Below are positions 1,946 through 32,887 of a DNA stretch of 39,293 nt, one piece after another. Positions within the stretch are counted from its first letter, which is position 1, and the number at the start of each line of letters is the position of its first letter. This DNA comes from Methanomassiliicoccaceae archaeon (GTDB lineage: Archaea; Thermoplasmatota; Thermoplasmata; Methanomassiliicoccales; Methanomethylophilaceae): the NCBI GenBank assembly GCA_031285205.1, contig JAITWO010000038.1, positions 1-39,293 of the forward strand, written 5' to 3'. The position numbers and the translations under genes are program-made. The notes beneath the pieces are model-generated. The model was not told the DNA's origin and did not search any database. It was given only the letters and a program-made list of their open reading frames with translations.

Positions 1946-1960
1946 TGCTCACGGGCATCA
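1943..1960. terminator. Bidirectional terminator hairpin between icd and the convergent small gene
   Basis: TGATGC-TCACGG-GCATCA is a perfect 6-bp stem with a 6-base loop. It overlaps both stop codons, with a short T-rich stretch just beyond on the plus strand. The geometry fits convergent transcription ends. Confidence 0.5.
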
Positions 1961-2248
1961 TAACTCTTTTATCTTCCTCAGCGAAGCTTCCGCCTGATCC
2001 CATGTATCGCACTCAAGGACATTCGAATCGAACATCGGCACCGTGATGATGCGATAATCCGCCGCGTTGCTGAACTTCAGTAAAAGTATCCTGTAACCGT
2101 CTCCGGAGAACCCTTTTTTCTTCGGATTCGAGACAACGGACGCGCCGTAATCATTCGGGAAATGGAATATCTTGTGAAAACGGTCTCCGTCCATGCAACC
2201 GCACACGCAGTCTGCGTTCAGATCGACCACATATTCCTCTAATCCCAT
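1958..2248 (-). CDS. Small conserved-looking protein of unknown function (96 aa)
   Basis: The 96-residue frame starts with ATG at 2248 and converges on icd, their stops lying 13 bases apart. I do not recognise the family. It has an N-terminal CVCGC cysteine cluster (near residues 15-19), a lysine-rich turn (NPKKKGF), alternating hydrophobic strands and a helical C-terminus with a TWDQAEASLRKI segment. This suggests a small alpha/beta fold. No signal peptide or membrane segment is seen. An AT-rich, TATA-like stretch lies upstream on the minus strand (about 2270-2290). Composition resembles its neighbours and the frame fills the gap cleanly, so it is probably real. The cysteines could bind a metal, but this is a guess. 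Confidence 0.6.
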   Translation of the reverse strand: MGLEEYVVDLNADCVCGCMDGDRFHKIFHFPNDYGASVVSNPKKKGFSGDGYRILLLKFSNAADYRIITVPMFDSNVLECDTWDQAEASLRKIKEL

Positions 2249-2618
2249 ATTCAGACCACGGATATTGGATATTTATCACAGATAATAAAGATGCTGTTCA
2301 TAATCCCCTCTACAGAGAGAAGTTCTGTCACCGAACATCTATCATTTTTGAGCGAAGGACTTCACAGATAGTATTAAATATAAAGCCCTGATTCCATGCC
2401 TTTTTTTCAGGATCTGCCTTTCTTTTTCTATAGGTTGTTAACTGTTTTTTCCTATACTCCCTTTTATATACGCGCGACTTAAGGCCGATTACGATATGAC
2501 AAATATATTGGATTGACCATCCATCCATCTAATCGGATTAAATAGGGTTCTGAGGATTACTTTTGCAGATATATCACCCTTTTTGGGTGCGTATCATTCT
2601 CGCATAGGAGGAGACAAA
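2249..2618. other. Long upstream region of the corrinoid methyltransferase cluster
   Basis: About 370 AT-rich bases without a convincing gene. Several TATA-like elements occur on the plus strand: ATTAAATATAA near 2371-2381, TTTTATATA near 2462-2470 and GGATTAAATAG near 2535-2545. The last is best placed to drive the corrinoid gene. The length and repeated promoter-like motifs suggest a regulated promoter or a long leader. A 66-codon minus-strand frame here (2328-2528) is basic, low-complexity and unconvincing. Confidence 0.5.
2575..2613 (+). promoter_or_regulatory. Leader hairpin and strong Shine-Dalgarno site of the corrinoid protein gene
   Basis: CACCC-TTTTT-GGGTG (2575-2589) is a perfect short hairpin. 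It is followed by AGGAGGAG (2606-2613), five bases before a TTG start at 2619. The strong Shine-Dalgarno site decides for this TTG over the upstream in-frame TTG at 2583, which overlaps the hairpin. Confidence 0.6.
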
Positions 2619-3257
2619 TTGTCAAAAGAAGCAATACTCAACAAACTGAGCGATGCTGTTGTTAGCGGCAAACCGGATCTTGCCAAACAGGGCGCGAACG
2701 AGGCCCTCGCAGCAAAGATAGATGCACTGGATGCCATCAACGGCGGATTGGTCAAGGGGATGTCAATAGTAGGTGACAAATACGCGGCACGTCAGGTATA
2801 CCTGCCTCAGGTACTGATGTCCGCGCACACGATGTACGCCGGCCTTGACATACTTCTGCCCGCCATCCCGAAGGCGGCAATGGCCAACGTGAAGAAATGC
2901 GCCACCGCGGTCGTCGAGGGTGACGTGCATGATATCGGAAAGAACATAGTGAAGACGATGCTGACCGCGGGAGGCTTCGATGTCACGGACCTCGGAAAAG
3001 ATGTACCTATCGCATCTATAGTCAGTGACGCGAAGGCCAAGAAATGGGATATCCTCGCGCTCAGCACCCTCATGACGCCCACGATGGACGGCATGAAGGC
3101 GGCTGTGGACGGACTCATCGAGAACGGCTACAGAAAGAACGTCAAGATATGCATAGGCGGAGCACCGACCTCGCCCGCATTCGCGAAGGAGATCGGCGCT
3201 GATCACAGGGACGCGAACGCACAGGATTGCGTCGCATGGCTGAAAGAGAGGTTTTAA
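2619..3257 (+). CDS. Corrinoid methyl-carrier protein (MtaC/MtbC/MttC-like)
   Basis: A 212-residue methyltransferase corrinoid protein of the cobalamin-binding methionine-synthase fold. It would carry a methyl group on Co(III) between a substrate methyltransferase and a CoM methyltransferase. Residues 1-90 form the four-helix cap. Residues 91-212 are the Rossmann-like B12 domain with GDVHDIG (101-107; His104 would be the lower axial cobalt ligand), LST (148-150) and GGAPTS (180-185). Start TTG is chosen from the Shine-Dalgarno site at 2606-2613. The next gene follows three bases later and is a UroD-fold methyltransferase, so the two should work as a pair. Sequence alone does not tell whether the substrate is methanol, an amine, a thiol or something else. 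Confidence 0.93.
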   Translation: MSKEAILNKLSDAVVSGKPDLAKQGANEALAAKIDALDAINGGLVKGMSIVGDKYAARQVYLPQVLMSAHTMYAGLDILLPAIPKAAMANVKKCATAVVEGDVHDIGKNIVKTMLTAGGFDVTDLGKDVPIASIVSDAKAKKWDILALSTLMTPTMDGMKAAVDGLIENGYRKNVKICIGGAPTSPAFAKEIGADHRDANAQDCVAWLKERF

Positions 3258-3259
3258 AC

Positions 3260-4342
3260 ATGCCGACAAACAAGGAAATCGCATTTGCAGCAGTAATGAA
3301 TGACAAAGCCGGCGGAAGGCTCAGCACATATCCGATCGCATGCGGTGTCAACAGGAAACTCGTGAACGGTGGTATAACATATCGTGACTGGGCGCACGAC
3401 CCGAAGCTGTACGCACAGGCGTTCATCGAAGGCCAGAAGAAATTCAGCTACGACTTCGCGATCGGCCTGATGGACCTTTCCGTCATGGCGGGCGATCTCG
3501 GCGCGGGCGTCAGGATGGACGAGCAGAACACGCCGTTCGTGGACAAACCGATAGTCAACTCTGTTGAGGACTACGAAAAATTAAAGGTCCCGGACATAAA
3601 GAAAGGAAGGTCCTCGGTCATCCTTGAAGGGACCAGGATATTCTCCCAGGCGCTGAACGACCAGGTGGTAACGGCAGGGTTCATCGAGGGGCCGCTGCTC
3701 GTCCTGACCCAGGCGGCAGGCGCAGAGAGAGTGTTCATGGACATGTTCACGAACCCCTCCGCAGTTCACACCGCATTGAAGACCATGACCGCGTTCGATA
3801 CCGAGATGGTCAAAGGATTCGGCAAGACCGGATGCGTCGGGCTTGTATGGGATTACCTTTGGGCCAACTACTCCTGTCTCGGTGACAAGGAGTATGAGGA
3901 GTTCGAGGGCAAATACTGCAGGCCGCTCAACAAGCTCACGGGGACGGAGGGAATGGCCTTCGCCATCCACAGCTGCGCTGACCTTCCGCATCTGGACACC
4001 CAGATATTCGACTTCAAACCTGCCATCTACTCTATGGCCTACTACCCGCTGATCCCCGACTCGCCGTCGGCATCGGAGGCCATCGCGAAAGGATATGCGG
4101 ACAACTGTCTCCTCGCAGGACAGATCGACCCGCAGCTCTTCATCAGAGGATCCGTAGAAAAGATCACCCAGGTGACGAAAGACCTTTGTCAGGAAGTTAA
4201 GACGGCGCTCTGCAAGAAAGGCCTCGGCCCGAGGTACTGCATCGCAAGCGGCTGCGAAGTCCCGCCGGACGTGCACACCAAGATGGAGAACATCGCAGCA
4301 GTCGTCGAAACGACGAAGAAGTTCGGAAAGATCGACTGGTGA
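3260..4342 (+). CDS. UroD-fold zinc methyltransferase (MtbA/MtaA/MtsA-like methylcorrinoid:CoM methyltransferase)
   Basis: A 360-residue protein of the uroporphyrinogen-decarboxylase superfamily. In the CoM methyltransferases of this group a zinc held by His-x-Cys and a distal Cys activates the thiol; here His237, Cys239 (AIHSCAD) and Cys332 (SGCEVPP) are in place. It would move methyl groups from the upstream corrinoid protein to coenzyme M. Alternatively it could be the demethylating enzyme for an unknown substrate, since UroD-type O-demethylases share the fold. The ATG at 3260 is preferred to in-frame ATGs at 3227 and 3236 inside the previous gene. It is cotranscribed with the corrinoid gene and followed by a hairpin with a T-run. 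Confidence 0.88.
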   Translation: MPTNKEIAFAAVMNDKAGGRLSTYPIACGVNRKLVNGGITYRDWAHDPKLYAQAFIEGQKKFSYDFAIGLMDLSVMAGDLGAGVRMDEQNTPFVDKPIVNSVEDYEKLKVPDIKKGRSSVILEGTRIFSQALNDQVVTAGFIEGPLLVLTQAAGAERVFMDMFTNPSAVHTALKTMTAFDTEMVKGFGKTGCVGLVWDYLWANYSCLGDKEYEEFEGKYCRPLNKLTGTEGMAFAIHSCADLPHLDTQIFDFKPAIYSMAYYPLIPDSPSASEAIAKGYADNCLLAGQIDPQLFIRGSVEKITQVTKDLCQEVKTALCKKGLGPRYCIASGCEVPPDVHTKMENIAAVVETTKKFGKIDW

Positions 4343-4345
4343 ACT

Positions 4346-4380
4346 GAAAGCTTTGAAAGGCTTTCTCCTAAACCTTTTTT
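4346..4380 (+). terminator. Hairpin plus T-run after the methyltransferase gene
   Basis: GAAAGC (4346-4351) pairs with GCTTTC (4360-4365) over an 8-base loop. A T6 run at 4375-4380 and further pyrimidine-rich sequence follow. It may end or attenuate transcription between the corrinoid pair and the CobW gene. A TTAAAATATA element at about 4399-4408 could restart it. Confidence 0.5.
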
Positions 4381-4422
4381 ACTATCTTCTTTTATCCCTT
4401 AAAATATAGGATAGTGGATGTA

Positions 4423-5094
4423 ATGAAAGTCTCACAGATCGCAGGATTCTTAGGCAGCGGAAAAACGACCGCTGTCATGAAGATCGTTGACGAGCTCATG
4501 AAAAGGGGGCATAAGATCGCCATAGTTGTGAACGATGTGGGCGAGATAAACGTCGATGCAAAGTTCATAGAGTCGCACGGCCTGAAAGCGAAGGAGATCG
4601 CGGGAGGGTGCATATGCTGCCAGATCGCGGGAACTTTCTCTGAGACGCTGGCGAAGCTGCATGATTCCTTCAACCCGGAGATAGTGATCGTGGAGCCTTC
4701 CGGCGTCGCCATACCGTGGGGATTGAAAAGAGCGGCTGAATATTCCGAGGCAAAGGCGGACATGGTGATCGAACATGCTCCGGTGATCACGCTGGTGGAC
4801 GCGACAAGGATAGACCTTCTCGTAAAGGCCGTCAAACGGTTAGTGGAAACACAGATACGCGAGGCCGATGTGTGCTTCGTGAACAAGGTCGACACCGCAT
4901 CCGCAACAGACATCGCAAAGACGGAAAAACTGATAAAGGACATGAATCCGCGCGCTGAGATATCACATATGTCATCGGAGACCGGACTTGGCATAAAATA
5001 CGCATGCGACCTCATTGAGACGCGGGTATCGCCAAGGTATGATGAAGCGGTGGAGGAAGAGATGCTCAGGAAACAGTACAATAAGGAGGGATGA
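4423..5094 (+). CDS. Short CobW/COG0523-type metal-chaperone GTPase
   Basis: A 223-residue P-loop GTPase. It shows Walker A GFLGSGKTT (8-16), the diagnostic CxCC metal motif GGCICC (Cys63, Cys65, Cys66), EPSG (91-94) and the base-specificity motif NKVD (154-157). COG0523 proteins deliver zinc, cobalt or other metals to client enzymes, and some act in cobalamin assembly. This one is short and lacks the usual C-terminal CobW domain. That missing domain might be replaced by the His-rich protein encoded one base downstream. The ATG at 4423 is chosen because the P-loop strand starts there; an in-frame GTG at 4414 would add three residues. Likely clients are the zinc methyltransferase or the corrinoid protein, judged only from position. 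Confidence 0.85.
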   Translation: MKVSQIAGFLGSGKTTAVMKIVDELMKRGHKIAIVVNDVGEINVDAKFIESHGLKAKEIAGGCICCQIAGTFSETLAKLHDSFNPEIVIVEPSGVAIPWGLKRAAEYSEAKADMVIEHAPVITLVDATRIDLLVKAVKRLVETQIREADVCFVNKVDTASATDIAKTEKLIKDMNPRAEISHMSSETGLGIKYACDLIETRVSPRYDEAVEEEMLRKQYNKEG

Positions 5095-5095
5095 G

Positions 5096-5644
5096 ATGAG
5101 CCATCATCACGACGACCATGAGCACGATGATCATGATGATGACCATGAGCACGATGATGATCATGACGGTCACCACGGGAATCCTGCGGACGAACATGAT
5201 AAATTACATTTAGAGATACACAGGGCAGTCGACGAATTGGGGAAGTATGCGATCGACATAAACGTGGATGCTCCTATGGGGGTCTCCAAAAAGACGGTCC
5301 TGAAATTCCTTGATGACCTGATGGTCGCGGTGACCAAGAGCTGCATGGACAACGGTGCCGATCTTGTGGGTCACGTGAAATCGTTCTTCTCGAACGACGA
5401 CGGAAGCATCATGTGCTCCATTGTCGACCACCGCATCCCGACGAGGATCAAGGACCAGTTCAATTCGGAAACGATATACAAAGCAAGGTTCATGCTACAC
5501 GTGATCGTGCACGGCATATGGGATGACCATGTACGCGAAAGCACATTGGAGGTCCTTGACGGTGTCTTCGGGAAATGGAATATACCTTATGAGATAACAG
5601 CGGACCATTACGATACTGAGAAGAGCATAGCTCACCATGGCTGA
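5096..5644 (+). CDS. His/Asp-rich metal-binding protein of unknown family (182 aa)
   Basis: Starts at ATG 5096, one base after the CobW stop, with AAGGAGGG as ribosome-binding site. The first 28 residues hold 11 His and 11 Asp, in clusters such as MSHHHDDHEHDD; an 18-base DNA unit is repeated within this tail (5114 and 5141). Such tails store or hand over Ni, Zn or Co in HypB, SlyD and CobW-like proteins. The remaining ~145 residues form a folded alpha/beta domain that I do not recognise. It contains one conserved-looking Cys each near AVTKSC and DGSIMCS, and a HVIVHGIWDDH segment. It probably acts as a metal store or donor with the adjacent GTPase. Confidence 0.8.
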   Translation: MSHHHDDHEHDDHDDDHEHDDDHDGHHGNPADEHDKLHLEIHRAVDELGKYAIDINVDAPMGVSKKTVLKFLDDLMVAVTKSCMDNGADLVGHVKSFFSNDDGSIMCSIVDHRIPTRIKDQFNSETIYKARFMLHVIVHGIWDDHVRESTLEVLDGVFGKWNIPYEITADHYDTEKSIAHHG

Positions 5645-5653
5645 GGCGGTAAC

Positions 5654-5968
5654 ATGGCGGACGGATGGATGGAAGCGATGCGGAACAAGGGTTTCTCCTA
5701 TAACACCACCGCATCCCTGAAAAAATTCAAATGCCCGTACTGCGGGTTTGAATTCTCAATGATATATGCCCGCACCTTTGCATGCCAGGGCTGTTCGGAA
5801 GCATGGAAGAATTGCCCCAAGCTCAGATGCGCCAAATGCGACACCGAATTCCCGATAACCGAGACGCCGCAGGTCCATAACGAATATCAGCAGAGAAATA
5901 TCTCAGAACACATATCCCGGATAGTTGTCGATTGGAACGAATCCCAGGGAAAGAAACCGAACAGGTGA
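5654..5968 (+). CDS. Small double zinc-ribbon protein (104 aa)
   Basis: ATG at 5654 with a GAGGCGG site upstream. Three Cys pairs are visible: CPYC, CQGC and a CPKLRCAKC cluster, which would form two zinc-ribbon or rubredoxin-like knuckles between residues ~27 and 65. A FPITETPQVHNEY strand and a charged tail follow. No known enzyme signature is present. It lies nine bases after the His-rich gene and overlaps the next gene by four bases, so translation is probably coupled. A role as metal-carrying adaptor, or a zinc sensor for the cluster, is plausible but inferred. Confidence 0.75.
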   Translation: MADGWMEAMRNKGFSYNTTASLKKFKCPYCGFEFSMIYARTFACQGCSEAWKNCPKLRCAKCDTEFPITETPQVHNEYQQRNISEHISRIVVDWNESQGKKPNR

Positions 5969-8004
5969 GCATTTTGCATATCGGCCTAGGATTTGATACA
6001 GGAGGAACATACACTGACGCCGTCCTTATGGACATGGCGACCAACGGCGTCATCAGAAAATCAAAAGCATTGACGACACGCGATGACCTTTCCGTGGGCA
6101 TAAGGAACACGCTGACCGGTTTTGATGAGAACGTCCTTAACAACGTGGCGATGGTGTCATTATCGTCAACGCTGGCAACAAACTCCATCGTGGAAGGCAA
6201 AGGATGCCGCGTCGGGCTTATATGCGTTGGCGAAGAATTCGAGATGTCCATACCGGTGGACCTTCACATAACAATATCGGGAGGCCACGACCTGGAGGGG
6301 AAGGAGGCCGGAGAACTGGATGAGGAGGCGGCGAGAAGGTTCATGATGTCCGTCAAAGACAAAGTGGATGCGCTGGCCATAAACAGCTATCTCAGCGTCC
6401 GTAACCCTGACCATGAGCTCCGTCTGAAAAAGATCGCGAAAGAGGCCCTCAACATACCTGTGGTGTGCGGCCACGAGTTGTCATCAAGCCTCGGGTACAA
6501 TGAACGTACTGTTACGTCAGTAATGAACTCACGTCTGATCCCGATAATAAGAGAACTGATGGACTCCGTTAAAAAAGTGATGAACGAGCACGGCATAAAG
6601 GCTCCGTTGATGATAGTGAAGGGTGACGGTTCGATCATGAGCGAGGAGGTGGCGCTAGAACGGCCCGTGGAGACCATACTGTCGGGCCCGGCGGCATCCC
6701 TCATCGGGGCGAAGATGCTCACCGGAAGAGAGGACGCCATAGTGATGGATATGGGCGGGACGACGCTGGACATCGGCATCCTCAGGAACGGCTACCCGCG
6801 ATTGGAGAAAGAAGGGGCGATCATCGGCGGCCACAGGACGAGGGTGATGGCCGCAGAGATATCCACATCGGGCATAGGAGGGGACTCGAGGATAATAGTC
6901 AACGGAAGCCGCTTCATGCTGGAAACGGTGCGTGTTGTGCCGTTATGCATAGCGGCATCCAGATGGCCTCAGCTGATCCCCCGTCTGAAAGATGTTTCAG
7001 AGATGAGGTCACGATTCTCACCGGAGAGCATGGACGTGATGAACATCGTCCAGGATACGGAATTCTTCATTAAACTGAAGGACATAAAGAATGTGCTGCT
7101 TAGCCGCGAGGACACCGCTTTGCTCAGCCTTATAGAAAAAGAACCGCTCTCCCTTAAAGAGGCGGGAATGAAACTGAACGTTCACCCGTTCTCATTCAAT
7201 GTTGCCAAGATGGAGAGTCTGGGCATGATACAGCGTATCGGCCTCACACCTACCGATCTTCTGCATGCGGACGGCAGTTATGTGAAATATGATAGGACCG
7301 CGTCTGAATATGCGGTCGCCCACCAGTCGCATAAGATGGGCATGAGCGGAAAAGAGTTCATTGCATTCGCCGGAGAAAGGGTCATTGACAAATTGGCGGA
7401 AGAATTGTTGAGAAAGCTGTTCTTCGAGGAGACCGGCACGTTACGTATAGATGCCGTAGGGATGGACCTTATGGGCAAGGCGATCTCGCGCACGGACGGG
7501 ATGGATTACGGGTGCGTGATAAAACTCAACAAACCGATCGTCGGCATAGGTGCTCCCGTATCTGCGTGGTTCCCCCGGGTGGCCGAGAAATTTGAAACGG
7601 AACTGTTATTGCCGGAGCATTCCGAGGTGGGGAATGCAGTGGGCGCAGTCACCGGAAGCATCGTGGAGAGCATGGACATTCTTTTAAAGCCGGGAGTGGG
7701 CGAGAACGCGCTGGACGACCCGTCGTGCATACTGTTCGCACCGTTCGGGCGCATCGAGTTCGAAAAGCTCAGCCAGGCAGAGGTGTTCGCAGTGGAAGAA
7801 GGAGGAAGGCATCTCAGGGAGCGTGCCAGGAAGGCCGGCGCAGACAATATCGAAGTGCGTTCCGAAAAACGCGAGAAGAAGGTGAGCCTCGGAGAGGGCT
7901 ATGAGGGCCGTATCCTCATAGAGACACAGATAACGGTCATGGCCGTCGGAAAACCGAGACAGTTCAAAATGGAAGAGTACGTCAGCGATTATGTGAAACT
8001 GTGA
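5965..8004 (+). CDS. Hydantoinase/oxoprolinase-family ATPase (HyuA-like)
   Basis: A 679-residue protein starting at GTG 5965 within a GTGA overlap. The N-terminus has the ASKHA phosphate motif DTGGTYTDAVL (11-21). Further motifs are SLSSTLATNSIVEG, the ATPase-core segment VMDMGGTTLDIG and EISTSGIGGDS, all typical of HyuA-type ATPases. A winged-helix-like insertion lies in the middle (segment beginning TALLSLIEKEPLSLKEAG). The well-known activity is ATP-dependent opening of hydantoins or 5-oxoproline. In corrinoid systems, ASKHA relatives such as RamA and other activators reduce Co(II). No C-terminal ferredoxin CxxC cluster is seen, so a RamA-like electron-transfer role is not directly supported. 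Co-location with the methyltransferase suggests a role in substrate handling or activation. Confidence 0.85.
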   Translation: MSILHIGLGFDTGGTYTDAVLMDMATNGVIRKSKALTTRDDLSVGIRNTLTGFDENVLNNVAMVSLSSTLATNSIVEGKGCRVGLICVGEEFEMSIPVDLHITISGGHDLEGKEAGELDEEAARRFMMSVKDKVDALAINSYLSVRNPDHELRLKKIAKEALNIPVVCGHELSSSLGYNERTVTSVMNSRLIPIIRELMDSVKKVMNEHGIKAPLMIVKGDGSIMSEEVALERPVETILSGPAASLIGAKMLTGREDAIVMDMGGTTLDIGILRNGYPRLEKEGAIIGGHRTRVMAAEISTSGIGGDSRIIVNGSRFMLETVRVVPLCIAASRWPQLIPRLKDVSEMRSRFSPESMDVMNIVQDTEFFIKLKDIKNVLLSREDTALLSLIEKEPLSLKEAGMKLNVHPFSFNVAKMESLGMIQRIGLTPTDLLHADGSYVKYDRTASEYAVAHQSHKMGMSGKEFIAFAGERVIDKLAEELLRKLFFEETGTLRIDAVGMDLMGKAISRTDGMDYGCVIKLNKPIVGIGAPVSAWFPRVAEKFETELLLPEHSEVGNAVGAVTGSIVESMDILLKPGVGENALDDPSCILFAPFGRIEFEKLSQAEVFAVEEGGRHLRERARKAGADNIEVRSEKREKKVSLGEGYEGRILIETQITVMAVGKPRQFKMEEYVSDYVKL

Positions 8005-8008
8005 TTAT

Positions 8009-9811
8009 ATGCTCCTTAAGGCGGAATCTGTGACAAAGGCATTCGGTCCTGTCAAGGTTCTTATGAAGGCGGACCTGCAGATCAACCGCGGCGATAGCAT
8101 CGGTCTCATCGGAGTGAACGGAGCCGGCAAGAGCACGTTCATGAAGATATTCCTCGGTGAATTCAAACCCGATACAGGCGAACTGACAAGGAACACACAG
8201 AAGATAGGGTACCTGCCGCAGTTCGCCGAATCGTCATCCGAATACACCGTCCGCGACGTTCTCGGAAGGCCGTACGGGCATGTCGAGAACATAAAGAGGA
8301 GAATGACGGAAATAGATGGCCTCATGGCATCCGGCAGGGACATCGACTGGAACTCGGTGACCGAAGAATACGCCTCTCTGGAAAAGGAACTGGCAAGGTC
8401 CGGCGCAGAGGATGAGGGCCTTCTGCTGTCATCCTTGGGAAAGGTGGGATTGTCAGAGGGGATGATGGAAAGGACGATGGACACGCTCAGCGGCGGCGAG
8501 CGTACCAAAGTCATGTTGGCGAGGGCGCTTGTGCAGGCAGAGGGGTGCGATGTGCTCTTCCTGGACGAGCCGACCAGTCATCTGGACATATCGACCGTTG
8601 AATGGTTGGAGGACCACCTTCTTGAGACGAAGTGCACACTGGTGGTGATAAGCCATGACCGCTACTTCTTGGATAAGGTTGCAACAAGGATGACCGAGAT
8701 CTCTTTCGGAAGGACGAGGGAGTACAAAGGCAATTATTCCGCGTTCGTCATGAAAAAGATGCTTGAGATAGAAAGAATGGAGGCAGAGTACAAAAAATAC
8801 GCAGCCAACAAAAGAAGACAGGAGGAGATCGCCGAGAACATGCACAGGGACCAGTGGTTCTTCTCCACCCATAAGACAAGAAAGAAGATGATCGAACGTC
8901 TTGAGGAAAAGGAATCCCCTGAGGTAAGCAGGGATATCACAGTGAAGATACAGGCGGCACAGAAGTCCGGGAAGAATGTGATCACCGCCAAGAACCTGAA
9001 AATAAAGCTTAACGGGAACGTGATACTGGAGAACGTTGACCTGGATGTGATGAAGGGAGATAAAATAGGCGTGTTCGGGGAGAACGGTGCCGGAAAGAGC
9101 ACACTGATCAAAGCGTTGCTGGGCCAGATACCCTCTGACGGCGAACTGTGGGTCGCCCCTGGCGCAAAGATAGGGTATTTTTCACAAGGTCACGATAAAC
9201 TGAACCTGAACCTGACGGCAGAGGAGCAGATACTTAAGGTCATAGGGAACGAAAGAAGGGCTGAGGCGAGAGGATTGCTGGCAAGGATGCTCCTCACCGG
9301 AGATCAGGTTGATAGACCTATGAGGACCCTGTCGGGAGGCGAGAGAGCCAGGGTAGCACTGACGTTGCTGCTCCTTGATGAGACGAACCTGCTCATCCTG
9401 GACGAGCCCACCAACTATCTGGACATCCCCTCACGGCATGCGGTGGAAGAGGCATTGAACGATTATGAGGGGACGATGATAGTGATAACCCACGACCGTT
9501 ACTTCTTGGATTCCGTGTGCACGAAGGTGTGCCACGTCAGTGACAAAAAAGTGAAGGTGTTCAACGGCACATACTCGCAGATGCGCGGCCGCCCCAATAC
9601 AACGGAGATCGTCATGGATGCTGACGAATACCGTGTGGTCTCACCGTTCACCAACTGGGCGCTCAACCGTAAATATTCGAAGGGCGACAGGGTGCTGATA
9701 GCACCTGCCGAGATGAAGAGCTACGAATGGGCGCTTGACCAGGGTAAACTGAAGAGGACCGGCGGAAGACAGAGAAAGAAGGTCAGCGTTGAGGACGATG
9801 ATGATCAGTGA
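8009..9811 (+). CDS. ABC-F family ATPase (duplicated ABC domains, no membrane segments)
   Basis: A 600-residue soluble protein with two ABC domains. Domain 1 has GVNGAGKST (35-43), the LSGGERTKVMLARAL signature and a FLDEPTSHLD Walker B. Domain 2 has GENGAGKST, LSGGERARVAL and ILDEPTNYLD. A charged linker rich in Lys, Glu and Arg separates them, as in ABC-F factors that act on ribosomes (EttA, Uup, Msr types). No transmembrane partner is adjacent. It starts four bases after the hydantoinase stop and may be cotranscribed with it. Its end overlaps the convergent NifV-like gene by seven bases. It is likely a translation or antibiotic-tolerance factor; the exact subtype is not assignable. Confidence 0.9.
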   Translation: MLLKAESVTKAFGPVKVLMKADLQINRGDSIGLIGVNGAGKSTFMKIFLGEFKPDTGELTRNTQKIGYLPQFAESSSEYTVRDVLGRPYGHVENIKRRMTEIDGLMASGRDIDWNSVTEEYASLEKELARSGAEDEGLLLSSLGKVGLSEGMMERTMDTLSGGERTKVMLARALVQAEGCDVLFLDEPTSHLDISTVEWLEDHLLETKCTLVVISHDRYFLDKVATRMTEISFGRTREYKGNYSAFVMKKMLEIERMEAEYKKYAANKRRQEEIAENMHRDQWFFSTHKTRKKMIERLEEKESPEVSRDITVKIQAAQKSGKNVITAKNLKIKLNGNVILENVDLDVMKGDKIGVFGENGAGKSTLIKALLGQIPSDGELWVAPGAKIGYFSQGHDKLNLNLTAEEQILKVIGNERRAEARGLLARMLLTGDQVDRPMRTLSGGERARVALTLLLLDETNLLILDEPTNYLDIPSRHAVEEALNDYEGTMIVITHDRYFLDSVCTKVCHVSDKKVKVFNGTYSQMRGRPNTTEIVMDADEYRVVSPFTNWALNRKYSKGDRVLIAPAEMKSYEWALDQGKLKRTGGRQRKKVSVEDDDDQ

Positions 9812-11151: not shown

Positions 11152-14100
11152 TTATTCCTCTTCCTCCTCTTTCTTCCTTCTCCACCAGTCGATCAGCAGC
11201 AGCGAGATCATGATTATGGAGGCGATCAGTATGATCCAAAGTGCGAAGGACTTCTTTGCCTCCGAGAACTCTCCTGTCACATCGACATGGCTGCTCACGG
11301 CGACCGTGTACACAGGCTCCAAGAGCCTCACAGGCCTGCCGTCATCCCATCCTTCGAAATTGTATCCAGACGGGATATTGGCCGTTGCCTCAAGGATCGC
11401 TCCGTACGGTATCGTCAATGTGACACTCGGCGCAGCTGCATCAAGTGTTCCGCTGAATATTACCGTCCCGGCGTCGGTGACCGTGTACGTTAATGTTCCT
11501 CCGTTGCCGCTGTGGCTTATGATCACGGTGAATGTCATGCGCTCCCATTGTGCGTACAGCGTGACCGCATCTCCGTCGACATCTGTGAGGTTGAGGACAT
11601 CTGCTTCGTCGTCGTAAACCACGGATCCGCCGGCAGATGTTGCCCAACCCTTGAACGTCCATCCCGTCAACTCGTACAAATTCATGGTCAATGCGCTCGA
11701 TATGTCGTATACGTGCGTTGAATCCGCTGTTGTTCCGCTGACCGTACCGCTTGCTGTGGCCGGCTCATTGGCATCGTATATCACTGTGTACGTGTTAGCG
11801 GTCCATTGTGCGTACAATGTTATAGTACCGCCCGTTACGATGTTCGGCATCACCGCACCGTCCGCATATGCAACACCGGATCCGTTCGATGCTGTGTTCC
11901 ATCCTGCGAACTCCCATCCAATCAGTGTGAATGCGTTGGTACTCAGTTCACCGGCAGGATCATCGTAATCCAGCGTGGTACTTGCCATTGTTCCACTAAT
12001 CGTGCCGCTCGCCGCAGACGGCTTGTTGGCATCGTACGATACTGTGTACGGTGTCTTTGCCCATACCGCATATATCGTCACCGTACCGGTTGTTGCGATG
12101 TTGGGCTTGACCTCCTCATCATCGTAATCTACGGTTCCGCCTGCAGATGTTGCCCATCCTGCGAACGCCCATCCGGTCAGTGCGAATGCGCTGATCCTCA
12201 GTTTGCCTGTGGGGTCGTCGTATGTTAGCACAGAATTGGCCATTGTTCCGCTTATGGTGCCGGTTGCTGCGGACGGCTTGTTGGAATCGTACACTACGGT
12301 GTATGTGTTCGCCTGCCATATCGCATATAATGTGATCGTTGCTCCGGGCGTTGACGTGAGGTCAAGAACGCTCTGGCCGTTTGTATATGCATCACCCGAA
12401 CCGTCCGTCGCCGTGTTCCATCCGGTGAACGACCATCCTGTCAGCTCATACAGATTCATGATCAATGCGCTTGATGTATCTGATTCGTGCGTCGAATCGT
12501 CCATTGTTCCGCTTACGGTGCCGCTCGCTCCGGACGGCTCATTGGGGAGGTATTCCACATAGTAGATCATCACCGACGTCACCGTAACTTCCACGTTGCC
12601 GATGACGTTCCCAATGGTAAGCATCCCTCCGAATTCATCATATATGTATCCTTCGAAGCTCGCACCGCCCATCGTGACCGTTATCTTCGCAGTGTAACCT
12701 GTCTCCATCTCAAAACTGATGTACAGGTCATAACCGTGCCTCACCACAAGTATCGATTCTGTCGGGGATACAACCCATTCTTCGGCAGACCAGTTCCAGT
12801 TCATTATGTGGGTGTCGGTCGTATCGATCTCCACGGTGTAGACCGCGTCTATGTCGATGATGTAGTTGTCGTGCACGGTCGTTAAGTTGTACTCATACAC
12901 ACCGTCCGACGGAACCGTCGGATAACCGATCCACCATATGACTCCGGTGCCGTAGTTCAGCGTCACCAGCGGGATGCCTCCCGCATATTCCGGACGGAGC
13001 TTGAATGAGAACTCGAAGTCGTCACCGCTTTGTACCACCGTTGACAGTAATCCATCGATCCCCGGCCCCAACGGCGGGTCGCCCGTGAGCGTGCCCGCTA
13101 CATAATGATTTTCGGATGAGGCGCTGAATGTTATGTCATACGCGGTCCTCTCCGCATACACAAAGATAATGATGTCCGTCTGTATCAGATCTACCTTGAT
13201 CGTCTTCTCGGTCCAATCATTTGTGATCACATAGATCTCTCCCGGTGCGATCGTGCCGCCTCGGGATATTGATATTTCCATCTTTACGTACTTTACGTCC
13301 ATTTTGATCTTGAGATCAACTTCACCGTCATATGTGGCAGGCACATTGCCTTCTATCTCCCATTCGAATCCCCCTCTGATTATGCTGGCACTGTCCATCT
13401 CTACATCAAAACCGATACCGGTCGGGAATATCGTATATGCACGCTTCACTTTGGGTATGTTGTTCGCGTATGTGTATGCATCATCTCCGTATATGTCGCT
13501 GTGCTGATACGTAAAACCGGTTCCGCCCGGCGGGAAGGTGTAGAAGTAGTTGCCCACGTGCAACGATATCTCACGATTTTGAACGAACCACTCGAATCTC
13601 GGATTGACCGTGAACGTGTAATCAAATCTCTCGCCCAGGGGCACATAGTATCTTATGTAACCGTTGCCGAGATCTATGTTCCTGTACGTTCCTAACGGTT
13701 CTATTGTGAATCCGGATTCCGACCTTACGGTCACCCACATGAAGATCGTATCGTCTCCTGTGTATGCTATCAGCTTGGGATACTCGTCATATGACAGGGC
13801 GGGGTCCGTTGTCCACAACTTTGAATCATCATTGGCGATGCTCCAGCCCGGGACGACGCCGCTTGGGAACAGCGAGGTGAGTGTGGGTACGGCGGTGTTC
13901 GACTGATTATACGTGCCTACTGTCTTCATCTGAGTTGCGGTCTTGGCACCAGACACCGAACCGGGGTTAGTGACCGTACCGATCCCTGACAGGTTGTTAG
14001 GCGTTGTTGTTATTGAACCGCGGGTGTATGTGATCCTTCCAGTCGTGAAATAGGAGTTGACGATATGTGTCGAACCTGTGGCATTGCCCAGTATCCCTCC

Positions 14101-15570
14101 TATGTTTGCCGTCACATTATTGGTTGTTGTCACTCTTATCATATATTGCTCTTCTGGGTTAGCGGGGGCCTCATCCAGGGCGTAACAGTTGACTATCGCT
14201 GCTGTTGTGGAGTCCATTCTGCCTGCGATGCCGCCTACGTTAAAGGCCGGAACCCCTCCGCCGCCTGTTTTCGTGAAAGAAGAGGTGATCGCTCCGATGT
14301 TGTAGCTGTTATATATCAGCGTACTTGTTCCGACTCCTCTTCCCACTATGCCGCCCAGCGATAACACGCCGCCGTTCATGGGTGAATTGCCCGTTCCTCT
14401 CATTATTACCGATCCGGCATTGAAGCATTCCTCTATGCGTAATGTCCCGTCCGAACCGCCCAGAATGCCGCCGACGCCCATGGTTAATGTATAGTTACCA
14501 TTCTGACCGTTCGATATTGCGGTGATCTGACCGGCATTGACGCTGTCTATTATCGTTGTTGTTCCGTTCGCATAACCCACAAGGCCGCCCAGGTACATCG
14601 TCGTGGTCGCAGATCCTGTTCCCATCGGGGCCGATGTTGCCGTGACAGGGCCGACGGCATAGCATCGCTCTATCGTAACGTTCCCTGTGGTACGGGCGGC
14701 AATGCTGCCTCCGTACACGACTGCGCCGATGTAGGGCGTGATAGACACAAAACTACTGCCCATCAGTCCCAGATTATAGACCTCCGCGCCGTTGCCCAAC
14801 AGTGCGAACATGCCTATGTGCACTCCGCCAGCCGCTTGCCATCTCTCGATGACACCGGCGTATGTCGAATAGCTGAGTCCGATTATTTCCTTGCCGTTAC
14901 CATCGAACTCTCCGGTGAACGCTGCCACCGAATATGTTGGGTTGGCCGCTGTTCCCCCTCTTGTGACGCCTATCGGAAGGAATCCCGAATCTATCTCTAT
15001 CGTTGTGCGGAACGTTCCGGCGCTGTAGGAATAAAGGTCCACCGAGTATGCGAACCTCACCCCTCCTATTATCCCTCCCACCACCATCGTATATTCGCCG
15101 AACGGGAGGTTGTTCACCATGATACGGTCTGTGTTGTTGGCGTTGTACATCCTGTCATCGAACCAGAGATACATTTCTGTGGCTGCTGATGATAATATGA
15201 CCTCGACATTCGCAGTATTGGGGAGACCGGGAGTGAACGGAACAGTGATGGTTAAACTGGACCCTCCGCTGGAGTACGAACTGAGATCCATGTCATCCAT
15301 GAGTATGTATTTTGCACTGAGCGACCACAGCACCCCCGGGAGCTCCGGTATGGTCGTGCCCTTACCTACTCTGTATAGGTCCTCGATCGTGTAGATCGGT
15401 ATGTAGTTCCCGTTCGTATTGTACACTAAGTAATCTGCACCAAGTATCCCATCCTCATCAGCGTCATTGTATGTGCCCACCGGGCCCGATACAATGGCTA
15501 CGAATGAGGATAATAAAAGTATGGATATTGCAGTGACTGACAATAACATGCAAATGTGGTTGTTCTTCAT
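11152..15570 (-). CDS. Giant adhesin-like surface protein with GLUG-like and InlB-type repeats
   Basis: A 1472-residue secreted, membrane-anchored protein. Residues ~5-30 are a hydrophobic signal or anchor (SVTAISILLLSSF). A long N-terminal body holds GLUG-like repeats (GGLVGYANG, GGILGGSDG, GGIVGRGVG). Four InlB-type (Listeria-Bacteroides) repeats of ~86 residues follow, each ending like ITLYAIWQAN (11536-12564). The C-terminus has a domain with GWDDGRPV, one transmembrane helix (IILIASIIMISLLLI) and a WWRRKKEEEEE tail. The ATG at 15570 is chosen for the GGAGGGGGATC site upstream. The protein probably mediates attachment or contact at the cell surface. It is paralogous to the next gene in its N- and C-terminal parts and in its leader. 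Confidence 0.88.
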   Translation of the reverse strand: MKNNHICMLLSVTAISILLLSSFVAIVSGPVGTYNDADEDGILGADYLVYNTNGNYIPIYTIEDLYRVGKGTTIPELPGVLWSLSAKYILMDDMDLSSYSSGGSSLTITVPFTPGLPNTANVEVILSSAATEMYLWFDDRMYNANNTDRIMVNNLPFGEYTMVVGGIIGGVRFAYSVDLYSYSAGTFRTTIEIDSGFLPIGVTRGGTAANPTYSVAAFTGEFDGNGKEIIGLSYSTYAGVIERWQAAGGVHIGMFALLGNGAEVYNLGLMGSSFVSITPYIGAVVYGGSIAARTTGNVTIERCYAVGPVTATSAPMGTGSATTTMYLGGLVGYANGTTTIIDSVNAGQITAISNGQNGNYTLTMGVGGILGGSDGTLRIEECFNAGSVIMRGTGNSPMNGGVLSLGGIVGRGVGTSTLIYNSYNIGAITSSFTKTGGGGVPAFNVGGIAGRMDSTTAAIVNCYALDEAPANPEEQYMIRVTTTNNVTANIGGILGNATGSTHIVNSYFTTGRITYTRGSITTTPNNLSGIGTVTNPGSVSGAKTATQMKTVGTYNQSNTAVPTLTSLFPSGVVPGWSIANDDSKLWTTDPALSYDEYPKLIAYTGDDTIFMWVTVRSESGFTIEPLGTYRNIDLGNGYIRYYVPLGERFDYTFTVNPRFEWFVQNREISLHVGNYFYTFPPGGTGFTYQHSDIYGDDAYTYANNIPKVKRAYTIFPTGIGFDVEMDSASIIRGGFEWEIEGNVPATYDGEVDLKIKMDVKYVKMEISISRGGTIAPGEIYVITNDWTEKTIKVDLIQTDIIIFVYAERTAYDITFSASSENHYVAGTLTGDPPLGPGIDGLLSTVVQSGDDFEFSFKLRPEYAGGIPLVTLNYGTGVIWWIGYPTVPSDGVYEYNLTTVHDNYIIDIDAVYTVEIDTTDTHIMNWNWSAEEWVVSPTESILVVRHGYDLYISFEMETGYTAKITVTMGGASFEGYIYDEFGGMLTIGNVIGNVEVTVTSVMIYYVEYLPNEPSGASGTVSGTMDDSTHESDTSSALIMNLYELTGWSFTGWNTATDGSGDAYTNGQSVLDLTSTPGATITLYAIWQANTYTVVYDSNKPSAATGTISGTMANSVLTYDDPTGKLRISAFALTGWAFAGWATSAGGTVDYDDEEVKPNIATTGTVTIYAVWAKTPYTVSYDANKPSAASGTISGTMASTTLDYDDPAGELSTNAFTLIGWEFAGWNTASNGSGVAYADGAVMPNIVTGGTITLYAQWTANTYTVIYDANEPATASGTVSGTTADSTHVYDISSALTMNLYELTGWTFKGWATSAGGSVVYDDEADVLNLTDVDGDAVTLYAQWERMTFTVIISHSGNGGTLTYTVTDAGTVIFSGTLDAAAPSVTLTIPYGAILEATANIPSGYNFEGWDDGRPVRLLEPVYTVAVSSHVDVTGEFSEAKKSFALWIILIASIIMISLLLIDWWRRKKEEEEE
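11536..12564 (-). repeat. Four tandem InlB-type repeats (85-86 codons each)
   Basis: The units begin (T/P)YTV-Y-(S/A)N(K/E)P, continue through SGT and LTGW-F-GW, and end with LYA-W. They are diverged at DNA level. Units 1 and 4 share the SSALxMNLYELTGW segment, while units 2 and 3 share DDP-GxL, hinting at past pairwise exchange. Confidence 0.85.
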
Positions 15571-15640
15571 TGCGATCCCCCTCCGCTGTGCCGCAATCTT
15601 CAACATCTGTTTCCTTCAGACTCATCCCATCTTGAAAGAT
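15571..15640 (-). promoter_or_regulatory. Leader of the InlB-repeat surface gene with conserved hairpin
   Basis: The minus-strand leader carries TCTTTCA and TGAAGGA arms (15612-15639) around a 14-base loop, then ACAGCGGAGGGGGATC before the ATG. The paralogue at 22863-22945 has the same order: hairpin, then ACAGCGGAAAGGGATC. The pairing is kept through a G-U wobble. Confidence 0.55.
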
Positions 15641-15956: not shown

Positions 15957-18900
15957 TCACTCCTTCTTCTCCTCCCTCCGCTTTACCAACATGGCTATAC
16001 CTATTATAGAGAACAGGATGATGATCAAGATCAGCAGGAACCCTGAACTTTCCATTAACGCCTCGAACAATGATCTTTTTGTCGGCGAGAATCCTCCCGT
16101 CACGTCGACCGCATCATATATGTCGGCTGCGTAGGTATCATCGGTCATCTTTACCGGTCTGCCGTCATCCCATCCGTCGAACCTGTACCCGTTCGATGGT
16201 CCGGCCAGAATTTCGAGATTGGCGCCGTACTGTACTGTCAGTGTGACACTTGATGTGGCACTGTCAAGTGTCCCGCTGAATATGACGATCCCGTCGTAGG
16301 TGACCGTGTATGTTAACGTTCCCCCTGTACCGCTGTGGCTCAGTGTCACAGGGTATGTGTTCATGGTAACGTCTTCCACGGTGACCGTCATGTCCTCTGT
16401 TATGTTCAATATCGTGTACTCGCCGCTGCTCGCATCGACCGTTACGCCATTCACTTTCACCGCCGGCGATGATGCCGAGTATGCTGTGTCCAATGAGAAC
16501 GTGAAGGTGAACGAGCTACCGTATTCAACAGGTGATGATCCTTCCTTCGCGTTCAGCGCATATCCCGTCCCGCCTGTCAGCGATACGGTGTATGTGTTGA
16601 TCACTACATCTTCCACAGTAACGACGATATCTTCGGTTATGTTCAGTATCGTGTACTCGCCGCTGCTCACATCCACTTCCGTACCATTCACTTTCACTAT
16701 AGCCAGTGATGCTGAGTACGGTGTGTCCAATGAGAACGTGAAGGTGAACGAACTGCCGTAGTCAACGGGTGACGAAGATCCGCTCTTTACATCGATCACA
16801 TATCCCGTCCCGCCTGTCAGCGATACGGTGTATGTGTTTATGACAACCCCTTCGACCGTTACTGTCGTGTCCTCGGTTATGTTGGTGATGGTGTACTCGC
16901 CGCTGCTTGCGTCGACCGTTACACCGTTCACTTTCACCACCGGCGATGATGCCGAGTATGCTACATCCAGTGAGAACGTGAAGGTGAACGAACCGCCGTA
17001 GTTGACCGGTGATGACGATCCGCTCTTTGCATCGATCACATATCCCATCCCGCCTGTCAGCGATACGGTGTATGTGTTTATGACAACCCCTTCGACCGTT
17101 ACTGTCGTGTCCTCGGTTATGTTGGTGATGGTGTACTCACCGCTGCTCACATCCACTTCCGTACCGTTCACTTTCACTATAGCCAGTGATGCTGAGTACG
17201 GTGTGTCCAATGAGAACGTGAAGGTGAACGAACCGCCGTAGTCAACGGGTGACGAAGATCCGCTCTTTACATCGATCACATATCCCGTCCCGCCTGTCAA
17301 CGATACGGTGTATGTGTTTATGACAACCCCTTCGACCGTTACTATCACGTCTTCGGTTATGTTCAGTATCGTGTACTCTCCGTCGATGACCGTTACCGCG
17401 ATGCCATTCACTTTCACCACTGCAGGTGATGCCGAGTATGCTGTCTCCAATGAGAACGTGAACGTGAACTTATCTCCGTATTCCACCGTCGTTGGATCAG
17501 CGGTTGTCATTACATATCCCATCCCGCCTGTCAGCGATACAGTGTATGTGTTTATGACAACCTCCTCGACCGTTACTGTCGTGTTCTCGGTTATGTTGGG
17601 TATGGTGTACTCTCCGCCGATCATGTCGACTTTTGTACCGTTCACTTTGATCACCGGTGACGATGCCGAATATGCTGTCTCCAGTGAGAACGTGAAGGTG
17701 AACGAACCGCCGTAGTTGACCGGCGATGCAGATCCGGGCTTCGCGCCGATCACATATCCCGTCCCGTCTGTCAGCGATACGGTATATGTGTTTATGACAA
17801 CACCATCCACCGTGATGGTCATGGTCTCGGTTATGTTCAGTATCGTGTACTCGCCGCTGCTCACATCCACTTCCATACCGTTCACTTTGATCATCGGCGA
17901 TGCTGCCGAGTATGCTGCATCCAATGAGAACGTGAAGGTGAACGGATCTCCGTGATCAACCGGTGATGACGATCCGTCCTTTGCTTTCAGTGTGTATCCC
18001 GTTCCGCTTTGCAGCATGACGGCGTATGTGTTTATGAGAACGCCTTCCACGCTGACGGTCGTATTCTCTCTTATGCCGGATATTGTGTACTCGCCGCTGC
18101 TCACATCCACTTCCGTGCCGTTCACTTTGATCACCGGCGATGATGCCGAGTATGCTACATCCAAGAAGAACGTGAATGTGTAAGATCCGTCGTACTGTAC
18201 AGGCAGTGACGATCCGCTCTTTGCTTCCATCGTGTAACCTGTTCCTTCTGACAAGGTTACGGTGTATGTGTTAATCACCACATCTTCCACAGTAACGACG
18301 ATATCTTCGGTTATGTTGGTGATGGTGTACTCTCCGCCGCTCACGTCCACTTCCGTACCGTTCACTTTCACTATAGCCAGTGATGCTGAGTACGGTGTGT
18401 TCAATGAGAACGTGAAGGTGAACGAACCGCCGTAGTCAACAGGTGACGAAGATCCGCTCTTTGCATCGATCACATATCCCGTTCCGGTTGTAAGCGAGAC
18501 AGTGTATGTGTTTATCATGACATCTTCCACGGTGACGGTAACCTCCTTGGTTATGTTGGTGATAGTGTACTCGCCGCTGCTTGCATCGACCGTTACGCCA
18601 TTCACTTTCACCACCGGCGATGATGCCGAGTATGCTGTGTCCAATGAGAACGTGAAGGTGAACGAACCGCCGTAGTCAACAGGTGACGAAGATCCGCTCT
18701 TTGCATCGATCACATATCCCGTTCCGGTTGTCAGTGATACAGCGTATGTGTTGATCACCACATCTTCCACAGTAACGACGATATCTTCGGTTATGTTCAG
18801 TATCGTGTACTCGCCGCTGCTCACATCCACTTCCGCGCCGTTCACTTTTACTATAGCCAGTGATGCAGAGTAAGGCGTCTCCAATGAGAACGTGAAGGTG

Positions 18901-22862: not shown

Positions 22863-22990
22863 TATGATCCCTTTCCGCTGTGTCGTATCCTTCTGCACAT
22901 CCGTATTGCTCTTTCAGACCTCCTCCTCCCCCTTTGAAAGATCTCGACACCGAGCAATAGAGGATAGCTGATAGAGAATATATACTCTGT
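22863..22990 (-). promoter_or_regulatory. Leader and promoter of the 15-repeat surface gene
   Basis: The minus-strand arms TCTTTCA and TGAAAGA (22910-22941) form a perfect 7-bp stem with a 15-base purine-rich loop (AAGGGGGAGGAGGTC). This leader is the counterpart of the one at 15571-15640. A TATATA element at 22978-22984 predicts a start near 22953 and a leader of ~90 bases, unusually long for this window. Confidence 0.55.
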
Positions 22991-31809: not shown

Positions 31810-32871
31810 ATGAGCAAGATACGCGTTGCCGTGCTAGGCGCCACAGGAATGATAGGACAGAGATTCGTGCAGATGCTTGAGGGCCACCCTTACTTTGAGA
31901 TAGAAGGGCTGTATGCATCCGACCGGTCCGATGGAAAGAAACTGAAGGACGTCCTTAAGGTGAGAGATTTTGAATACAAGAACGAGACGCTTGATATGAA
32001 GATGGAAACAATGGACCTCAAGAAGATCGCGAAGAACGCAAGGGTGGCATTCAGCGGTCTGCCGTCCGACCTTGCAGGAAAGACCGAGAGCGACCTTGCC
32101 GAGGGCGGTATCGCAGTGTTCAGCAACGCCGGCGCGCACAGAATGGACAAGGACGTTTCGATACTCATTCCGGAAGTGAACCCATCTCATCTTGATTCGG
32201 TGAAGGACCAGGCGACATACGGGAACGGCGGGTACATAGTCACGAATGCCAATTGTTCAACGACCGGCATAGCGCCGCCACTGGCTGCGGTACGCGATGC
32301 ATACGGCCTCGATTTCGTGTCTGTATCAACATATCAGGCGCTTTCCGGCGCCGGATACCCCGGAGTACCGTCGCTTGACGCCGTAGGGAACGTCATACCT
32401 TTCATAGGCGGCGAAGAGGAGAAGATGGAAGCGGAGATCGTAAAGATACTGGGAACATATGAGGACAGATCGTTCAATTACGCGAAGTTCAGAATGCTCG
32501 CCAACTGTGCCAGGGTGCCGGTCATCGACGGCCATCTGGAATCGCTGGTCATCAAGATGGATGATACGCCGTCCGTTGAAGAATTGATAAGGACGTTGAG
32601 TTCATACAAGGGTGAGCCACAATCGCTTAAATTACCATCAGCGCCGGTGCAGCCGATAATAGTGCGCACCGAGAACAACAGGCCGCAGCCTGCGCTGGAC
32701 TCAATGGCCGGCTCCCCCGAAAGGGCGAGAGGGATGTCCGTTGTTGCCGGCAGGATCAGAAAAAGTGACGAATATTACAAATTGTTCGTCTTATCGCACA
32801 ACACCATGAGGGGCGGGGCCGGCGGTTCCCTCCTGAATGCGGAACTGGCGAAAGCGAAGAAGTTACTGTGA
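31810..32871 (+). CDS. asd: Aspartate-semialdehyde dehydrogenase
   Basis: A 353-residue enzyme reducing aspartyl phosphate to aspartate semialdehyde with NADPH. It has the N-terminal Rossmann motif GATGMIG (10-16), the nucleophile motif NANCSTTG (Cys149) and the downstream catalytic-His segment VIDGHLES. The last ~25 residues hold HNTMRGGAGGS. It belongs to the archaeal/fungal type of Asd. It heads a tight group with three homocysteine-synthesis genes (gap 16, then two 4-base overlaps), so its product probably feeds homocysteine as well as lysine and threonine. Confidence 0.95.
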   Translation: MSKIRVAVLGATGMIGQRFVQMLEGHPYFEIEGLYASDRSDGKKLKDVLKVRDFEYKNETLDMKMETMDLKKIAKNARVAFSGLPSDLAGKTESDLAEGGIAVFSNAGAHRMDKDVSILIPEVNPSHLDSVKDQATYGNGGYIVTNANCSTTGIAPPLAAVRDAYGLDFVSVSTYQALSGAGYPGVPSLDAVGNVIPFIGGEEEKMEAEIVKILGTYEDRSFNYAKFRMLANCARVPVIDGHLESLVIKMDDTPSVEELIRTLSSYKGEPQSLKLPSAPVQPIIVRTENNRPQPALDSMAGSPERARGMSVVAGRIRKSDEYYKLFVLSHNTMRGGAGGSLLNAELAKAKKLL

Positions 32872-32887
32872 AGATATGGTGAATACA

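Follow-up and report, generated by a model that had tools for sequence, protein, structure and literature searches.

The window analysed here is the whole 39,293-nucleotide (nt) stretch of contig JAITWO010000038.1 (positions 1 to 39,293, forward strand) from the genome of a Methanomassiliicoccaceae archaeon (GCA_031285205.1). At 2619-8004 on the plus strand it carries a module of six co-oriented genes coding for a corrinoid protein, a UroD-fold methyltransferase, a CobW-type GTPase, a His/Asp-rich protein, a small 7-cysteine protein and a HyuA-type ATPase. The module is best explained as a lineage-specific corrinoid methyl-transfer system consisting of a thiol-type zinc enzyme of the UroD fold, an ATPase for the maintenance of the corrinoid protein and an accessory for cobalt supply, a reading to which a probability of about 0.45 is given. 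This explanation draws on the gene content and linkage of the module, the conservation of the zinc triad, the separate phylogeny of the methyltransferase and the occurrence of the module in genomes where none of the known methyl-substrate enzymes was found.

Distribution and conservation of the module

A survey of 147 Methanomassiliicoccales genomes (ortholog threshold, E up to 1e-30) revealed orthologs of the UroD protein in 76 genomes from 24 of the 30 genera of the order. Scanning 84,980 species yielded 68 loci, essentially all of them within Methanomassiliicoccales, whose records bear the name of this order or the generic names Thermoplasmata, Euryarchaeota or archaeon. Two records are labelled otherwise: a metagenome-assembled genome named as Clostridiales, which is taken to be mis-binned, and another named as Methanomicrobia DTU008. 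One locus (L251) is carried by 'Candidatus Methanomicula labiotermitis', from a termite-gut genus of the order (PMC10684969).

In the flanks of the 68 UroD loci, some of which are on truncated contigs and whose flanking genes are partly annotated, the corrinoid gene was found in 60, the 7-cysteine gene in 56, HyuA in 51, CobW in 42 and the gene for the conserved His-rich domain in 37. Because of these co-occurrence counts the linkage of the six genes is not attributable to chance. The constant core is formed by the corrinoid protein, UroD, the 7-cysteine protein and HyuA, a set kept across three families of the order; CobW and the His-domain gene form an accessory pair of variable position. 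These two genes move together, at times to the opposite flank of the module. Another pair of this kind adjoins MtrA-MtrH or stands alone. Four-gene versions without CobW nearby are known (L267-L269), and the core four are found together where neither CobW nor cobalt genes are close (L210, L214, L267-L269). Other neighbours are DUF1638 (25 loci), a 96-residue protein (23), a GAF sensor kinase (20) and CbiMQ (11); RamA is near only one locus. DUF1638 is a family associated with B12 reactivation in bacteria (PMC5764234), and its presence is counted in favour of corrinoid methyl transfer. Literature searches, with subscription papers outside their coverage, found no described module with such gene content.

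The initial annotation had stated that MtaB, MtmB, MtbB, MttB and RamA are absent. This is correct for the window, where none of the five was found, but not for the genome as regards MtmB, with two genes on contig C16, and RamA, encoded on contigs C21 and C16. The genome (1.23 Mb) contains MCR; searches of it for MtaB, MttB and MtbB gave no match, absences limited by its completeness of 87%. Over the 147 genomes the module and MtaB occur together in 50, the module alone in 26, MtaB alone in 47 and neither in 24, which gives an odds ratio of 0.98, and the odds ratio with MttB is 0.54 (P 0.07); both values treat genomes singly, and related genomes are not independent samples. The presence of the module is thus independent of MtaB, and the dependence on mtaB-type genes elsewhere, named beforehand as an argument against a separate pathway, was not observed.

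At the thresholds used, MtaB, MttB, MtmB and MtbB were all missing from 11 genomes that have the module (G026, G103, G104, G106, G129, G132, G136, G137, G142, G144 and G145). MCR is present in nine of them, all but G132 and G137, and completeness reaches 95-99% in G142, G145, G104 and G136. Only two PF02607 corrinoid proteins are encoded in each of G142, G144 and G145, one being that of the module and the other lying in a second HyuA-UroD-RamA locus. Taken together, the survey of loci supports a conserved corrinoid methyl-transfer module without a linked known substrate methyltransferase. As a separate observation, a radical SAM protein is encoded immediately next to the second corrinoid gene of G142; judged by its position and size, the same probably holds for G145 and others (L125 7117-8232; L126 12889-14007).

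The methyltransferase, the ATPase and the metal-related proteins

The UroD protein scored 66.7 bits against TIGR01463 (cut-off 235.4), 65.6 against PRK06252 (244), 51.9 against MtbA (600) and 31.9 against MtaA (400), and no MtsA-named NCBIfam family was among the matches listed. Its best match in the PDB was a methylcobalamin:coenzyme M (CoM) methyltransferase (4ay7, E 4e-8). A tree was built from 49 UroD proteins of the order, 20 of them module orthologs. These 20 form one clade (support 100/100, stem 1.45), apart from the MtaA/MtbA-like clade to which the paralog encoded near MCR in the same genome belongs; the root and the deep branching order are weakly supported. On account of this tree position and of scores far below the cut-offs, the protein is, judging from its sequence, neither MtaA nor MtbA, and the placement within these enzymes that the initial annotation had considered as counter-evidence was not seen. 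All 21 orthologs aligned have residues H237, C239 and C332, which correspond in position to the HICG...PGC zinc ligands of the MtaA-like paralogs.

HyuA retains the phosphate motifs of its superfamily (DTGGTYTD and GGTTxDIG). HyuB (PF02538) was absent from all 18 genomes searched and was matched in 6 of 14 control genomes, two methanogens being among these six. Besides, a HyuA paralog is encoded in the same genome, on contig C21, in an operon with the order corrinoid protein, HyuA, MtaA-like UroD and RamA. Since HyuB is lacking and the paralog sits in such an operon, HyuA looks like a corrinoid-related protein and not like a hydantoinase. Its predicted role is to maintain or activate the corrinoid protein at the expense of ATP. 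A weak similarity to MutL/GlmL, an accessory family of B12 enzymes, fits a corrinoid role and proves nothing. Neither PF14574 nor Fer4 was matched, so the RACo ASKHA domain and the Fe-S clusters that define RamA/RACo activases were not found in HyuA, and the coexistence of RamA with the paralog on C21 makes it unlikely that HyuA is simply the reductase. As a speculation, it could correspond to the methyltransferase activation protein (MAP).

The C21 operon (L131), a second conserved one near MCR, lies on the minus strand and comprises the corrinoid gene at 8830-9468, the HyuA paralog at 6491-8701, the MtaA/MtbA-like UroD gene at 5353-6381 and RamA at 3587-5212 (TIGR04270, 704 bits), followed by DUF169. 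An operon of this type is also present in G110 (L193), where no corrinoid gene was recognised.

The small protein preceding HyuA had been described as a double zinc ribbon. It has seven conserved cysteines and not eight (C27, C30, C44, C47, C54, C59 and C62, invariant in 23 sequences), and no fold match was obtained in the PDB. In two families a distant 7-cysteine paralog is encoded close to another, divergent UroD protein, and no corrinoid gene was recognised around it; this arrangement is present in the genome under study (contig C44, L134 4198-4542 and 7935-9053) and in G142 (L192 6479-7645 and 9646-9951), and is perhaps another related system.

The CobW protein (223 residues) is a G3E GTPase with the CxCC motif, conserved as GGCICC, and consists of the N-domain only, the C-terminal CobW domain being absent in the Pfam search. 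CobN is encoded in the module loci of five genomes (L036/L203, L040/L208, L221, L224 and L240), together with ChlI/ChlID, and is not found in the window itself; other module loci contain a CbiM-CbiQ cobalt transporter, an ABC ATPase and a FUR-type regulator. The profile scores are 922 bits for CobN (TIGR02257, cut-off 822), 262 for CbiM (184) and 125 for CbiQ (112). CobW is well established as the metallochaperone that handles cobalt in the CobN route (PMC7895991, PMC10206600). Since CobN, ChlI/ChlID and CbiM/CbiQ are linked to module loci, cobalt for the corrinoid is more likely to be the metal handled than zinc for the UroD enzyme, and the claim that the module has metal-handling genes of its own is thereby borne out and sharpened.

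Concerning the partner of CobW, the His/Asp tail is limited to part of one family and the conserved part is a His-rich core domain, with H42, H93, H135 and H139 invariant in an alignment of 33 sequences. An AF2 model of this core had pLDDT above 90. Foldseek gave no match with E below 0.001, and YjiA, of the CobW family, was retrieved with E about 0.01 and TM about 0.3. It may be speculated that the His-domain protein replaces the C-terminal domain missing from the short CobW. MtrA-MtrH pairs adjoin the second CobW/His-domain pair in G104 (L042 7865-9531), G142 (L046 11716-13456) and G026 (L194 1231-2911); the membrane subunits MtrB-G are, to our knowledge, reported as absent from Methanomassiliicoccales. 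Two apparent recoding events were examined and rejected: a TGA in the second His-domain paralog, read as a selenocysteine codon, belongs to CobW as its stop and precedes the true start of the paralog, and a TAG in MtrH of three genomes, read as a pyrrolysine codon, is an ordinary stop codon close to the frame end (a 294-residue open reading frame).

Proposed function and competing explanations

In the mechanism proposed, the UroD enzyme would employ its zinc triad for methyl exchange between the corrinoid cobalt and a thiol-type compound, in a manner comparable to MtsA of Methanosarcina; this compound could be a methylated thiol or thioether as donor, CoM as acceptor, or both. The methyl group would then reach CoM and be reduced to methane; the transfer to CoM would be the work of the UroD enzyme itself or of the MtaA/MtbA-like enzyme whose gene is near MCR. 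HyuA and the 7-cysteine protein would keep the corrinoid protein active by loading, exchange or reactivation, in addition to RamA, the general activase, which is encoded in another part of the genome. The gene linkage further suggests that CobW and its His-rich partner would deliver cobalt for corrinoid synthesis, together with the CobN/ChlI/ChlID chelatase and the CbiM/CbiQ transport genes of the loci of relatives.

Several points weigh against this explanation. No substrate-specific enzyme, transporter or transcript links the module to a substrate. The soluble CoM methyltransferases (SCMTs) share the zinc triad and only methylate CoM, and therefore the first step could run in the direction of CoM methylation only. 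Since the other HyuA operon contains RamA, a simple replacement of RamA by HyuA does not hold, and the linkage on which the assignment of CobW to cobalt is based comprises about five genomes with CobN and about 11 loci with CbiMQ. Moreover, the genome under study has MtmB, which means that the module is not the only methyl entry of this organism. Minimal genomes such as G142 also encode several other UroD-fold proteins and MtrAH, proposed as a methyl-tetrahydrofolate:CoM route (PMC6147122), and the module is therefore a candidate methyl entry and not a proven one. A more ambitious version, in which the module would serve Methanomassiliicoccales as the enzyme by which methyl groups from an unrecognised class of substrates enter methanogenesis, the main one in methanogens such as G142/G144/G145 and G026, where no methanol or methylamine methyltransferase was found, with HyuA and the 7-cysteine protein as a new kind of corrinoid-protein maintenance ATPase, is put forward with considerable doubt.

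It is conceivable, with a minor share of the probability, that the UroD protein acts only as second methyltransferase, passing methyl groups from the corrinoid protein to CoM like MtaA or MtbA, and that the substrate-specific enzyme is encoded elsewhere. The SCMT-like zinc triad, the match to 4ay7 and a corrinoid protein closest to carriers of the MttC/MtbC/MtgC type agree with such a role. However, the enzyme falls outside the MtaA/MtbA-like clade in a genome that already has an MtaA/MtbA-like enzyme (PRK06252, 320 bits, above the cut-off), it occurs independently of MtaB and shows no positive association with MttB, and the module is kept where MtaB, MtmB, MtbB and MttB are all missing. Rather unlikely is an anabolic or salvage function, whereby methyl groups would pass between the corrinoid protein and a biosynthetic partner (MesB, tetrahydrofolate or CODH/ACS), or methylthio or methylseleno compounds would be salvaged, as has been proposed for bacterial mlp clusters. 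Such a function would have a precedent in Mlp2 of the bacterial type-1 MGCs, a UroD/corrinoid system that methylates selenide in vitro (PMC10418091), and would agree with the need for a methyl donor of MesB, the sole methionine synthase of Methanomassiliicoccales (PMC7857596). The presence of the module in only about half of the genomes, many of which also have methanol or methylamine enzymes, would suit it too, but a biosynthetic need would predict near-universal presence, and no methionine, selenium, folate or CODH gene was among the genes scored in the 68 loci, whose flanks are partly annotated.

That the locus is mainly an island for cobalt and corrinoid homeostasis, in which UroD would have a minor or non-catalytic role, is very improbable. 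CobW, the His-domain protein, CobN, ChlI/ChlID, CbiMQ and a FUR-type regulator do cluster here in some genomes, but the core four also persist where CobW and cobalt genes are not close, as described above, and UroD is strongly conserved with its zinc triad intact. The initial annotation had offered yet another possibility, a hydantoinase-like ATPase preparing the substrate; this could be done, for instance, by opening a ring or an amide. Although HyuA is homologous to the ATPase subunits of 5-oxoprolinase and hydantoinase, this proposal is strongly disfavoured and close to being abandoned, considering the consistent lack of HyuB and the paralog in the corrinoid, MtaA-like and RamA operon.

If a corrinoid methyl-transfer system is indeed encoded here, it may feed methane production from an unrecognised substrate and may be an overlooked methane route in guts, wetlands, digesters and soda-lake sediments. 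It is also a lead on the role of orphan HyuA-type ATPases. The question is testable in pure culture, because G015, with the intact six-gene order, two DGC-domain genes, three MtaB and MttB on contig 23, is probably Methanomassiliicoccus luminyensis, as judged from features that include the three MtaB and the location of MttB (PMC5688252). The expression study of this species dealt with nine corrinoid genes of methanol and methylamine systems (three MtaC, MttC, MtbC and four MtmC; PMC5688252). In about 10 loci, which belong to two families, the module is adjoined by genes for two putative metal-binding proteins with the DGC domain (PF08859; L045 7013-7740; L266 5337-6046).

Locus architecture and comparison with known systems

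Features of the module and its junctions in the window
Feature	Position	Strand	Remarks
96-residue protein	1958..2248	-	DLNAxCxCGC...H motif; divergent from the module; no Pfam/NCBIfam match; near 23 of 68 named loci; aligned
Corrinoid (methyl-carrier) protein, MttC/MtbC-like	2619..3257	+	TTG start; PF02607 80 bits, PF02310 82 bits; GDVHDIGKNIV cobalamin motif conserved
UroD-fold methyltransferase	3260..4342	+	PF01208 148 bits; predicted zinc triad H237-x-C239...C332
UroD-CobW junction	4343..4422		T-rich run; probable transcription break
CobW/COG0523 GTPase	4423..5094	+	ATG at 4423; PF02492 136 bits; CICC motif; predicted cobalt metallochaperone
His/Asp-rich protein	5096..5644	+	No Pfam match; variable tail and conserved alpha/beta domain; constant CobW neighbour
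Small 7-cysteine (zinc-ribbon-like) protein	5654..5968	+	No Pfam match; constant HyuA neighbour
HyuA-type ASKHA ATPase	5965..8004	+	GTG start (most likely), 4-nt overlap with the preceding stop; PF05378 and PF01968

Pfam and NCBIfam profile searches gave the same gene order and strand as the initial annotation, but the tight spacing described for most of the module does not hold at the UroD-CobW junction, of about 80 nt. A T-rich junction of the same kind is present in about 24 homologous loci, and therefore the locus probably forms at least two transcripts, with the corrinoid and UroD genes apart from CobW-HyuA. The corrinoid protein scored 201 bits with TIGR02370, just below the cut-off of 215. 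The gene for the 96-residue protein, with its C-x-C-G-C motif, is a conserved divergent neighbour that had been omitted previously.

Neither the downstream ABC-F gene (6 of 68 loci) nor the upstream isocitrate/homoisocitrate-dehydrogenase-like gene (3 of 68) is a member of the module; the ABC-F ATPase (8009-9811) lies directly 3' of HyuA only in close relatives. Further along the window, two very large and probably secreted proteins of 1484 and 2313 residues are encoded on the minus strand (11152-15606 and 15957-22898), the repeats of the former resembling, by eye, InlB B-repeats. At 31810-35150, about 24 kb from the module, an aspartate-semialdehyde dehydrogenase-like gene is followed by three genes that by eye resemble an archaeal homocysteine-synthesis set (DUF39, NIL/ferredoxin and UPF0280).

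Among the known systems, the methylthiol:CoM methyltransferase MtsA/MtsB of Methanosarcina, reportedly described by Tallant in 2001 (as cited in PMC4153887), combines a UroD-fold zinc enzyme, which carries out both half-reactions with a methylthiol, with one corrinoid protein and needs no separate substrate methyltransferase. The gene content of the module is compatible with such a system. On the other hand, the module UroD is far below the cut-offs of the MtaA/CmuA families, and the module has HyuA, 7-cysteine and CobW/His-domain genes, which are not known from mts loci. With the SCMTs MtaA and MtbA the enzyme has in common the fold, the zinc triad and a corrinoid partner, whereas its separate clade and low scores set it apart.

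The Cdm, Mec and Cmu halomethane systems (PMC13222342, PMC9768040) employ a UroD-fold enzyme that demethylates the substrate onto a corrinoid protein, but CdmB needs no zinc, and their tetrahydrofolate methyltransferase was not seen in the module. The type-1 mlp clusters (Kountz and Balskus, PMC10418091) likewise join UroD proteins to a corrinoid protein without a known substrate enzyme; they are defined by at least Mlp2 and Mlp3, a corrinoid protein and a Ram/RACE activase, and have two or three Mlps, while the module has one UroD protein, no RACE and no RamA in the window, and a HyuA-type ATPase instead. Finally, with CobW-CobN cobalt insertion (PMC7895991, PMC10206600) the module shares the CobW GTPase with CxCC and, in relatives, the linkage to CobN, whereas here the C-terminal domain of CobW is lacking and a separate His-rich protein is its partner.

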